Part shown: positions 39,331-43,907 of the stretch, piece after piece | Numbering within the stretch: the first letter of the stretch is position 1 | Layout of the letters: every line of letters starts with the position of its first letter | Assembly: GCF_025399195.1 (NCBI RefSeq) | Contig: NW_026252113.1 | Coordinates: 62,001-126,000, forward strand | Source of the DNA: Umbelopsis ramanniana AG | Taxonomy: Eukaryota; Mucoromycota; Umbelopsidomycetes; Umbelopsidales; Umbelopsidaceae | DNA length: 64,000 bases | Direction: 5' to 3' | The notes under the pieces: generated by a model | What the model saw: the letters and a program-made list of their open reading frames with translations, nothing else | What the model was told of the DNA's origin: nothing | Databases searched by the model: none | Position numbers and translations under genes: made by a program

Positions 39331-40223
39331 ATTGATAAATTTGTGTGAAAGAGTGATCTGCCTGGCCGGTAGATCAATTGTGCCGTTTTTATACACTTTT
39401 GTGACTGACGCGTCCCGCCGCTGACTTGTGAATTTGTTGTCTTGGCGTATTTTACGTGATCCTGGCCGGACGTTTTGAGTCATGCGGAGAGTGTTGAAAA
39501 TTTGGTTGCAACGGCTTATGTTTAGTGGTAAGGACAACACATCGTTATGAATCCTTCAGAAAGCAGAATTGCCAATGCTAGAAGAAAAAATATTGAACGG
39601 CCATAAACCCATGTATCAACGCAGTCGCACTCTTAACTGCTGAAGGATCAGCCCTTCCACTTCAACATCTTATGCTACCCCCTTCTGTGACAGAGAATTG
39701 CTTGTGTAGTACCAATTGATCGAGGAATAATCACTACTGCGTGGTAAATATGTTGTATTATATTAAAAGGTGTGAGAACATGGTAGCTAGCGACAAGACG
39801 CTCATGATGCTGGTACGCAGGCTTCTACACAACCATTGCGATCAGAGAATATGTAATCTATGCTAATGTGTCAGTGACTTGCCTAAGTTAAAAAGTTTTT
39901 CTGAAGATGACTGTGGAAGCCACAGAGGGGATGACTCAATTACTCGAGCTCTCAAACGTTATATTTGCAGATCAATTTTTTTGGGATTCATGCGCAGCTT
40001 ATAAGCCATCCATCTGGGTCTCAGAAGCAAGTGTACTGTTTATTGATCACAAATTTACGGAAGATGGAATGATAATTTGCGTTAGATAGAATGATCATTT
40101 TGCGTTGGATATTGCGTTAGATACTTTTTACATTGTTTGCTTCTTGTGAAAAAAGACACAAACTCACCTCTTTCAAGTATCGCTTTAAGCGCGTGGGGCT
40201 TTCATAGCACCCTTCTCATGATA
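39331..40223. other. Spacer 3' of the Fanzor gene
   Basis: This 893-bp region lies between the SDR start and the Fanzor stop codon. It holds the SDR promoter at its left side and, at its right side, three 13-nt repeats and the palindrome CGCTTTAAGCG (about 40185) just downstream of the Fanzor stop. In Fanzor/TnpB loci the guide RNA is usually encoded around the 3' end, so this is where to look for it. Confidence 0.4.
40076..40123. repeat. Three tandem-like 13-nt repeats 3' of the Fanzor gene
   Basis: TTTGCGTTAGATA (40076-40088), TTTGCGTTGGATA (40099-40111) and ATTGCGTTAGATA (40111-40123) are near-identical, and the first two are each preceded by GAATGAT. They start about 100 bp past the Fanzor stop codon. 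They may mark the element end or belong to its noncoding RNA; this is inference. Confidence 0.5.
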
Positions 40224-42804
40224 CTACCTCTTATTCCAGGTAGGTTTTTCACCGGTGAGAGCATACGACTTCACGATCCTCCTCATATTCATGGCGGCAA
40301 GGACATCTTTGTGCCAAACGGCCTGGTGATCATGACGACGAGTGGCTACAGCATCCAAAGTGTAGGTCCATGGTAGCCGAGGATTAGTCAATGTACCAGC
40401 GTTGTAATTGGCCCGGCAAGTTGTGCAACTTCTGTGTCGAATTACAGCGCAATCGTTCTTTATGACACGATCTTGGCATTCATTAAATGGGTGGAGGAAT
40501 GATATGTTGCCGTCATCGTTTCTCTCACAACACCACTTCCTCCTCTTCTTCCACCGCTTGCCGGGCACTCGATCATCGTACTTTGATTTTGCGAGGTGGT
40601 CACATACTGAGACACGAGTTTTGTAGTCGACAGTCCTAGCATCACATAAGCAGGTGATACTCGTCCGGAATTCGTCAACTTTGATTACTTTGGCAAATCG
40701 TGCTACGTATTTAGCCAAACCCTTGACGGGCAGTGGTGGCGACCCCTTCCTGTTGCCAAAGCATCCAGTACCCCATGCTACAATTTTTGAATTCGATAGA
40801 TGTAGCAGTGGTATGCGGTCGGACGGAGGACCAGCAGCAGCAATTGGTTTCTGCGGTGGCAACACCGATGAATTGCAGAGCAGAGTATTCTTCATTGTGG
40901 CGTAGGCTCTCTCTGTTGCAATTTCTCTCGTCCTTCTCCATCTTCGGTAAAACCCCAGCTTTGACCATGCATGCAAGATGTTGAAGTGTCTGTAACAGAC
41001 AGCCAAATAGGCAGCCCATTGATCGTAGCTATCTCTTCTCAACAATGATAGCTGGTCAGTTGCCTCTTTCACAAGCCTTTGCTGCAGACGAGATTCTTTT
41101 TTGGAAAATGCTTGTGATAGGCGTGCGTTAACCCAGTATCCTAATTAAATAGAGTTATGTTGTCATTTAAATTAATAATTTTCAATCATATCAAAGTATG
41201 CATGCTGACATACCTTTGGTTATCTGCATTTTATCGTATAGATTCTCGGATCTGACAGCAGTAATCAAGGACTTCAGGCCAGGATCAACCCCGATGAGAT
41301 CAGCACTTTGGAGCTCAGCTTGTACGGACTGAGGGTCCAATTTCAGAAGCTTAAACATTCCTTTACTGTAGCTGCTCAGGTCTATAAGTTCCTGTTGTTG
41401 GTATATGTATTGATGTCAGTGAGTACATCAACAACAGCTATAATGTTTAATTTTCTCCATAAAACAAACCTCTGTTGATCTGCTAGGTAGATTTCGGCTT
41501 GCTGATTCATTTGGCTGAGGTTTGAACGAAACACTACAGCCAAAACCATCTGTGTTTATACCTATATGGTGAGTCGCCGCTCTGAGTTTTTTTTAAAGCC
41601 ATGTTATTAGTGCTTTACGGCTGTGATCTTACGGCTGTGATCATGACTTACTTCTTACTAAGTCGATCCAGATCAAAGATTTGATGCCATATCGACGTTG
41701 ATGATGAGGTTTCTGCACTTTCCTCTACAGTGTGACGTGGTTGGCGTTGACGTCCTACGGGCCATTTGCTTTCAGCCACTATTGTATACCTTTTCAGCTC
41801 ACCAAGAATCCTCTCATCCAAACGAAAATATTTTGTTGTCATTGTGTATTCCGGAAAGAGCTGGAACCTACGAGCGTCACAGTTTGAGCGGATAATGCGC
41901 AAGAACTTGTAGTATGACAATATCAAAGACAGTAGTTTTCGCTCTTTCAACAGTGTCCTTGTCAGCCTTCGATACCTGTGATCAGCTTCACGGTTTTCTT
42001 GAAGAAGAATGCCCATAGCTCGGCGATGTGCCATTATAAGATCTTGCAAATCGTCATCAGGAATGTAGATATTCACTAATCGTTCACCTCTTGATGTACG
42101 GATTTCAACAGATTCATCATCGGAATCATCAGAATCCGAGTCATTATCAATTTCTTCATCCTGAAAGGCCGCAGTGTTTTCAAATGGTTCTTCCGGGTGT
42201 GAATTATCCGTGCTACTACTTGCTGATGATGGGTCGACATTGTCTCTGTTCTCGACAAATACGAGCTCATTTATTTGACGTGAGATGTACATGGCCATTT
42301 TGTTGACGATTTTCTTCCTATCAGAGCCTTCGGCTTCCTCTTCTGGGATATATGGGTCGATTCACTTTTCAAGGTATGAAATTGAAACTTAAAAAAGTGC
42401 GTAAAGAGATGAGCCTTAAGGTTGGCAATCATCATTCTAGCATTATATGCCCGTATTTGTGCGGACAGGACTGAAGGTTTGGAAATGCCGTTTATACCAG
42501 AAAAGTAGCTATTGAAAACATCGTTATACGTTTGTTGTAAAGCCTCTTTGTCTGGTGTCAGCGCCGTGGGACGGAAGTTATCCATGAACAACGCTTGAGC
42601 AAACGTGAAATAGGACTGTAGCTTTTCGGTATCCGTAGGTAGAGCAGTGTTTTCTTTGTTTAAATGTACGTTTATCAGCAAACTGGCCTGCCGCCGTACG
42701 AAGGATGCAGCAACGGCTATTTCCCTAATAACAGGCACAAGGTGTTGAAATTCTGGACGTAGTATTGCTATCAATCCTGTTTTAATGGTTTGTTGTCGTG
42801 GCAT
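40224..42804 (-). CDS. Fanzor: eukaryotic TnpB-like RNA-guided nuclease
   Basis: Five exons (42366-42804, 41659-42342, 41470-41561, 41214-41391, 40224-41140) join in phase to 769 residues. The N-terminal helical part holds 'ARMMIANLKAHLFTHFFKF' and an acidic Ser/Asp linker; then comes the TnpB-like core: 'INTDGFGCSVSFK', RuvC-I 'LIGVDPGLKSLITAV' (catalytic D), RuvC-II 'VIKVDEFRTSITCLC' (catalytic E), a Cys-rich finger ending 'HRSCTTCRANYN', and RuvC-III 'WHKDVLAAMNM' (catalytic D). All three acidic residues are kept. Fanzors are encoded by eukaryotic mobile elements and cut DNA guided by a noncoding RNA from the 3' part of the locus. The join between the first two exons would need a 23-nt intron (42343-42365); without it there is a frameshift. 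An in-frame upstream ATG exists at 43002. No transposase or clear terminal repeats were found. Confidence 0.88.
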
Positions 42805-43330
42805 TTTGTAAAGACTTTTAGGTGAATGCTGAGAGTGATGCCCAGTGATTGAATATAAATAGCGAGTGATTGAAAATAAACGCCCGCCAAACCCCCTTTT
42901 CGATTTTGAGGATTTCGAGAAAAAAAAAGGGGTTCGAAAGAAACTGCTTACATACACTTTCGTGTATTGGATTCGTCTTAACGTATGACTTAATGGCTTC
43001 AAATAATAGCGCGATGGACGGTTAAGCTATCTAGTTGCCTCTTCAAATGTGCTCGAGATATCATGAGAAGAGATTTTCTTGAGTCTCTTGCCTTACGATC
43101 AAAAAGTATGCCAATATTTATCAGTACCAATCAATACCGATCAATTAAATCTTATGTCTGCTTCTATATCTAATTACTTTTAATTGGATTCTATAATTTG
43201 CAATAGAGAAAGATATGAGGACAAGATGGAATTCAATGATGCAGCGTGAATGACACCACATTCTATCATTCATACCAAAGACATCATGTATTTGACAACT
43301 TCTGTTTTGTAGCTTAGCTTTCGGCGATTA
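42805..43330. other. Region 5' of the Fanzor gene
   Basis: This 526-bp AT-rich region contains the presumed Fanzor promoter. Short partly repeated words (AGTGATTGAATATAAATAGCG, AGTGATTGAAAATAAACGCC-like) occur near 42845-42880. No terminal inverted repeat was found by eye. Confidence 0.35.
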
Positions 43331-43576
43331 CTATGGTGAAGCCGTTCCTGTGGATAGCGAGGCGTCCAGTCCCACCATATCAACATCCATCAGGGCTCGC
43401 AACGGTACCAGAATGGTATCCTTGTTTCCACCTTTCTCCTCGATATCCATCGGTTGACTTGGTTTTTCCATCATAGTCTCCTCATTTTGCATGTAGGACC
43501 CTGTAGGGGTAGAGTTATCAGCTTCACACAAGATCATGTTTTCGCCTTCAATAAATGTGATATTACTGTTTTCCAT
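43331..43576 (-). CDS. Small acidic unknown protein, 81 aa
   Basis: An 81-codon frame with ATG at 43576 reads MENSNITFIEGENMILCEAD and is acidic and Met-rich (MDIEEKGG, LMDVDMVGLD). It lies between the Fanzor start and the Nudix gene, on the Fanzor strand. No family is recognised. It may be a small gene, a remnant exon or chance; the single uninterrupted frame is the only support. Confidence 0.3.
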   Translation of the reverse strand: MENSNITFIEGENMILCEADNSTPTGSYMQNEETMMEKPSQPMDIEEKGGNKDTILVPLRALMDVDMVGLDASLSTGTASP

Positions 43577-43907
43577 GTCATATGCTCACTATGCAAGGGC
43601 TTATAGTCCGTATATTCAATTTTCTATGAAAACCTGAATTCGCGTTTAAGGCTACTAGGCGAAATATAATTATAGTTTGCGTATACAAATCAGAGGATCT
43701 GCGCCAATTATTTTGAGAAAGACTGTAGTTTGCATGGAGAGCTGGCTGTCAGTCGCGTGCGAAAATATGACATAATTCATTAGCTAACAACGGTTACCTT
43801 TTTCGCCGCTAGTGAAAGGTGTAAAGTTCGCTTTGCAGCTAAAAAAAAAGAATGATTTGCCCAAAAACGAGAATAGGCTGTCATTATTACGAAAAACGAA
43901 AGAAGTC
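43577..43907. promoter_or_regulatory. Divergent spacer before the Nudix gene
   Basis: These 331 bp include the Nudix promoter. The Nudix frame stays open upstream to 43812, so the true start may lie slightly further left. Confidence 0.35.

Follow-up and report, generated by a model that had tools for sequence, protein, structure and literature searches.

Fanzor1 genes carried by Tc1/mariner elements have been known since 2013, with PGv-1, PUl-1 and PUl-4 as described cases (Bao and Jurka, PMC3627910, in its account of these elements), and the same source gives the motif of TnpB and Fanzor proteins, in the part that defines it, as D-X(125,275)-[TS][TS]XX-[C4 zinc finger]-X(5,50)-RD. For Spizellomyces, PMC10432273 describes Spu-1 with inverted repeats of 30 nt, counts 42 Fanzor loci alongside 134 ghost loci, and places the Fanzor omegaRNA between the stop codon and the inverted repeat, with a guide 14-15 nt past the conserved part. 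Umbelopsis is absent from the main text of PMC3627910, and the literature searched contained no paper treating Fanzor with Umbelopsis or with Mucoromycota. Here we describe a Fanzor gene in a 64,000-nt stretch of the Umbelopsis ramanniana AG genome (hereafter the window), together with its copies in the 22.8 Mb of genome that was searched for them.

The window gene and its reading frame

The Fanzor-like gene lies on the minus strand (42804-40224) and was modelled with four exons encoding about 776 residues, as follows.

41659..42804, minus strand: Fanzor exon 1, N-terminal lobe, with a single frame break near 42362
41470..41561, minus strand: Fanzor exon 2, NTDGFG..VSF strand, GT-AG sites placed by hand
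41214..41391, minus strand: Fanzor exon 3, RuvC-I GVDPG, D codon starting at 41286
40224..41140, minus strand: Fanzor exon 4, RuvC-II (E codon 40673), RuvC-III (D codon 40307), stop codon 40226-40224
40652-40416, minus strand: Cys-rich TNB-like region within exon 4

Splice sites were chosen manually as GT-AG pairs preserving the frame, and the model comprises 777 positions, including one X at the frame break, which was read through. Judged by its position, exon 2 (NTDGFG..VSF) may be WED-like. The motifs follow one another in the order GVDPG, VDEFRTS, Cys-rich region and KDVLAAMN, and in the read-through model the presumed catalytic residues are D449 (41286), E629 (40673) and D751 (40307). A preliminary description of this DNA, made from the letters alone, had reported RuvC-I, RuvC-II, a Cys-rich finger and RuvC-III in TnpB order with the three acidic residues present. 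This order was confirmed on the minus strand, and D, E and D were invariant, along with one C-x-C and one C-x2-C pair, in an alignment of the nuclease half (A5) that contained three rows, namely the window protein, the metagenome protein P0002 and the protein of a sibling element on contig C4.

While the RuvC motifs and catalytic residues are thus kept, the reading frame is not unbroken, since it shifts once, near 42362, relative to a second copy on the same contig (C27b). Both C27b and the predicted proteins P0001, P0004 and P0005 are unbroken at this site, and no intron of plausible length that would account for the break was found by eye. Because of this break, the window copy is not intact as assembled.

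Similarity to Fanzor1 proteins

With the A5 profile (nuclease half, three rows), the top PDB match was Parasitella parasitica Fanzor1 at E 0.035, one of two matches. The same protein again came first, at E 0.0015 and as one of two matches, with the six-row profile A6, which consists of A5 plus three relic fragments, one of these rows being bridged by hand (without the relics E is 0.035). The match comprises three collinear stretches, each weak alone, which pair GVDPG with MDPG, VDEFRTS with IDEFRTS, and KDVLAA with RDQAAV. A single-sequence PDB search returned zero matches, and there was no Fanzor among the 8 matches (E up to 10) of a full-length profile of three relatives. TNB was the sole Pfam family matched by all three A5 rows, below the Pfam cut-off (E 0.074 at best and 2.9 for the window row), and the full relatives P0001-P0003 yielded nothing above any family cut-off in Pfam, NCBIfam or PHROGs. 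Two AlphaFold2 models built from 5-row alignments had mean pLDDT values of 34.6 and 38.8 and were unusable.

We compared the window protein with the motif of Bao and Jurka and found that order and spacings agree: D449 is followed after 182 residues by TS, the Cys-rich part runs from C636 to a last Cys at C714, and another 35 residues lead to K750-D751. The departures are KD for RD, a first Cys pair of the form C-x-C, and a long stretch between the pairs of the putative zinc finger. PpFz1 of P. parasitica (PDB 9cf0-9cf3; PMC11423790) has the same order of RuvC-I, RuvC-II and RuvC-III, with IDEFRTS in place of VDEFRTS. Going by the profile alignments, the spacings differ, as D and E are 270 residues apart in PpFz1 versus 180 in the window protein, and E and D are 63 versus 122 residues apart; the window protein would therefore be without an FRI-sized insertion between RuvC-I and RuvC-II, and its Cys/His-rich region from RuvC-II to RuvC-III would be the longer one. 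SpuFz1 of Spizellomyces punctatus, with D383, E541 and D606 as listed for it in PMC10432273, has spacings of 158 and 65 residues compared with 180 and 122 here.

The initial identification of a Fanzor-like nuclease is thus upheld by motif order and by the PDB profile search, which ranked Parasitella Fanzor1 first, and by sequence the gene belongs to the Fanzor family. Its best match is a Fanzor1 and its carrier is mariner-like, so that it may group with Fanzor1 rather than Fanzor2. The weak family scores and the lack of a usable structure model would also suit a RuvC look-alike that is not RNA-guided, but we consider this very improbable, given that the best PDB profile match is a Fanzor1, that the catalytic motifs are collinear, and that a conserved block follows the stop codon, where Fanzor loci keep their omegaRNA (PMC10432273, in its treatment of these loci).

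The closest proteins found were P0001 from U. ramanniana, at 75% identity, one from a metagenome, at 36%, and one from U. nana that aligned over 65% of the query at 33%; the first of these supports a fungal origin. Further relatives are possible, as the protein searches scored only about 8000 candidates sharing most words; additional protein searches contributed only P0004 and P0005. Among viral contigs, 84 stretches fitted the pattern and 0 were relatives.

A mariner-like element bounded by TA

The gene sits in an element with the following features.

40036..43725, minus strand (Fanzor sense): mariner-like element of 3690 bp, with boundaries common to other copies
40034..40035, no strand: TA on the Fanzor 3' side, half of a presumed target-site duplication, found at three of five left ends (window, C27b and C4)
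43726..43727, no strand: TA on the 5' side, found at six of seven right ends examined
43316..43725, minus strand: element 5' end, common to C4, C53, C26, C79, C68 and C27b at 87-94% identity
40036..40127, minus strand: element 3' end, equal to C4 at 91 of 92 positions
43331..43576, minus strand: 81-aa ORF upstream of Fanzor, N-terminal remnant of the C4 DDE_3 transposase

Twelve ends from eight copies were examined, and TA was present at all nine where similarity reaches the boundary; in the other three (C95 left, C79 left and C26 right) similarity stops short of the element end. We presume from these sequences that the TA repeats are a target-site duplication. The element 3' end occurs at five places including the window, plus a sixth, weak one at an inverted relic (C27c), and every occurrence adjoins Fanzor sequence.

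The preliminary description had placed the gene between ordinary genes with no transposase nearby. The second point did not survive the comparison with the C4 sibling, which carries a transposase interrupted by one stop. The C4 protein matched DDE_3 in Pfam (E 4.3e-20), and is encoded by two adjacent ORFs upstream of Fanzor that are split by one in-frame TAG. As a query, it produced 35 matching stretches in the genome, with full coverage only on C4. In the window, the terminal part of the 81-aa ORF (43576-43331) corresponds to the start of this transposase (75% over 20 aa, tblastn E 8e-4), and the ORF itself had no Pfam match. Since the ORF holds only the start of the enzyme, the window element is a member of the family that has lost most of its transposase.

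The C4 sibling element (L028 3484-8521) measures 5038 bp and contains both transposase and Fanzor. The exons of the latter look open, and an intron possibly splits its start codon. More distant Fanzor relics, with in-frame stops and recognizable RuvC-I or RuvC-II stretches, were seen on C40, C5 and C105 (L030, L031 and L032), and none of these three loci had a match to the C4 transposase.

Long terminal inverted repeats were not found, as the local scores were reached by 317-939 of 1000 shuffles. When the outermost bases were compared in inverted orientation, the window element had 5 of 8 alike (275 of 5000 shuffles) and 10 of 20 alike (177 of 5000), and the C4 element 6 of 8 (50 of 5000) and 11 of 20 (79 of 5000). 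Because clear terminal inverted repeats are missing, the filing under Tc1/mariner is provisional. Along the Fanzor strand, the 5' TA is preceded by the triplet A-N-(A/C) in 6 of 6 copies (window 43726-43732 and five others), which in this very small sample could reflect a target or TAM preference.

Related copies and decay of the window copy

The second copy, C27b, is full-length and 97% identical, and is located on the same contig at a distance of 180 kb, in inverted orientation relative to the window copy. C95 is a 3' fragment of 517 bp with 98% identity, and more distant Fanzor copies are located on C4 and C79. On contig C27, a third and more diverged Fanzor 3' end (C27c, L007 6889-7171) is inverted and stands tail to tail with C27b.

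Two copies on one contig, 180 kb apart and inverted, could also have arisen by duplication of a chromosomal segment instead of transposition. This is scarcely credible here, as the homology is cut off at TA on either side, and on other contigs these ends occur within different flanks. The preliminary description had proposed a single-gene element or a host-captured copy; what we found instead is a multi-copy, TA-flanked family in which the same Fanzor occurs at least twice more. A captured Fanzor with a cellular role would be in keeping with the position in a gap between other genes, on which that proposal drew, and with the intact catalytic residues. We nevertheless hold host capture to be extremely improbable in view of the broken frame, the TA-bounded transposon ends and the other copies with the same ends.

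Six exon indels separate the window copy from C27b, five of which are C27b's own and one the window's. Over the exons, the two copies differ by 17 synonymous and 36 nonsynonymous changes, with a pairwise dN/dS of about 0.61. Among the 35 residue differences, the residue of the relatives is kept in the window copy at 19 and in C27b at 10, with 6 undecided. Decay is the rule in the window subfamily, because C27b has five indels and C95 is truncated; the window copy and C27b have the appearance of recent insertions in decay, which is less advanced in the window copy.

One may ask whether the frame break is an assembly error, so that the window copy would be an intact, active Fanzor. No second break was seen in the 2.3 kb of coding sequence, the RuvC motifs are all present, and the count of relatives' residues (19 of 35, against 10 in C27b) favors the window copy. 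Against this stand the five exon indels of C27b and the truncation of C95, a dN/dS of 0.61 between the two copies, which indicates weak constraint, and the loss of most of the element's transposase. Thus, we regard an intact window copy as unlikely, and the copy is probably inactive unless the break is indeed an assembly error.

A conserved block after the stop codon

Two adjoining stretches follow the coding sequence.

40167..40214, minus strand: conserved block of 48 nt immediately past the stop codon, predicted to form three small helices and regarded as a candidate omegaRNA scaffold
40128..40166, minus strand: subfamily-specific stretch, alike in the window, C27b and C95, unlike C4/C79 and C27c

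The post-stop block equals C4 at 39 of 47 aligned positions, and equals C27c, which retains it, also at 39 of 47. Its identity to C4 (83%) is to be set against 31-41% at the third codon positions of the genes. The C4 Fanzor reading frame extends into the block.

RNAalifold predicted a three-helix fold for the block. Over six rows, pairing holds in 95.2% of the 84 cells, against a mean of 92.1 for shuffled rows, and 4 of 500 shuffles reach the observed value; the structure had been derived from the same six rows on which the pairs were counted. Changes on both sides affect 2 of 14 pairs, which 248 of 500 shuffles reach, and the number of cells changed on both sides is 4, which only 5 of 500 reach. 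Because every changed cell stems from one lineage difference, this covariation is suggestive only. An Rfam search over 39900-43900 gave zero matches at E up to 1, and a bacterial promoter and terminator scan is not meaningful in a fungus. On its position and conservation, we treat the post-stop block as a candidate omegaRNA scaffold.

In its multi-copy nature and its conserved noncoding stretch from the stop codon to the element end, the element resembles that of SpuFz1 as portrayed in PMC10432273. Spu-1 differs in that no transposase was found inside its repeats, according to the same account, while the C4 sibling carries one here; a single DNA query with the element 3' end revealed no ghost loci in this genome.

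A distance of 131 nt separates the end of the block from that of the element, and the first 39 nt of it are the subfamily-specific ones. Hence there are two options, an omegaRNA that extends as far as the element end or a guide that begins within the element. For a 21-mer from 40166-40128, no further genomic match turned up within 2 mismatches. As to a genomic target of 40166-40128, only the three copies match exactly, and a single further match with 3 mismatches is close to the chance expectation by our own estimate, so that no target was retained. It is conceivable, but in our judgment very improbable, that Fanzor and its RNA scaffold form a module that ends at 40167 and is exchanged among the ends of a single mariner-like family, with a fixed guide from 40166-40128 inherited along with the element. 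If this were true, the guide would be inherited inside the element instead of being set by the flank of the insertion site.

Fanzor genes and element ends

Between the window and C4 copies, compared over exon 4, taken in two pieces, and the initial portion of exon 1, residues are 49-57% alike and third codon positions 31-41% alike. The low likeness at third positions indicates that the Fanzor genes are near saturation. The element ends, by contrast, agree at 91 of 92 positions at the 3' end and at 94% at the 5' end. Near-identical ends around saturated Fanzor genes suggest that Fanzor modules have been exchanged between elements. Selection on the element ends could contribute to their likeness, but part of the 5' end codes for transposase, and the simpler reading is that Fanzor has been exchanged within one element family. 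Comparable chimeric elements are described by Bao and Jurka (PMC3627910), where, as here, ends are in common but cargo is not.

Discussion

Taken together, the locus is best explained as a mariner-like DNA transposon whose cargo is a gene for an RNA-guided nuclease of the Fanzor1 type, with the window copy decaying, a reading to which we assign a probability of roughly 0.75. The copy is taken to be decaying because most of the transposase is gone and the Fanzor frame is broken once. The window gene is a further case of a kind already in print, Fanzor1 in a mariner element (PMC3627910). Like PGv-1, PUl-1 and PUl-4 as presented there, the family found here includes an element that carries a putative Fanzor1 together with a mariner-like transposase and others that carry Fanzor only, and it has presumed TA target duplications. 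The elements of that paper, in the descriptions it gives, differ in coming from other hosts and in having terminal inverted repeats, which are not clear in the window element.

As for mechanism, the DDE_3 enzyme would carry out transposition at TA: the transposase, provided at present by other copies if by any, would excise the element and insert it at TA. The post-stop transcript may then serve as omegaRNA and direct Fanzor to the emptied or uninserted site, and repair of the Fanzor cut from an element-bearing copy would keep or spread the element. This proposal follows the model put forward for TnpB of bacteria, in which cutting and repair would restore the element (PMC11870625, in its outline of that model).

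The benefit that Fanzor brings to its eukaryotic transposon is an open question, and the Spizellomyces elements are reported, in the part of PMC10432273 devoted to them, without a transposase found in their repeats. Because the window copy is decaying, its importance alone is modest, and the main interest lies in the element family of this genome and not in the single gene. With its near-fixed ends flanking saturated Fanzor genes, this family also provides a further probable case of cargo exchange. Within one family, there are a member with transposase and Fanzor, Fanzor-only members, and members in which only the transposase side was found, and such a mixed family would allow transposase and Fanzor to be separated experimentally.
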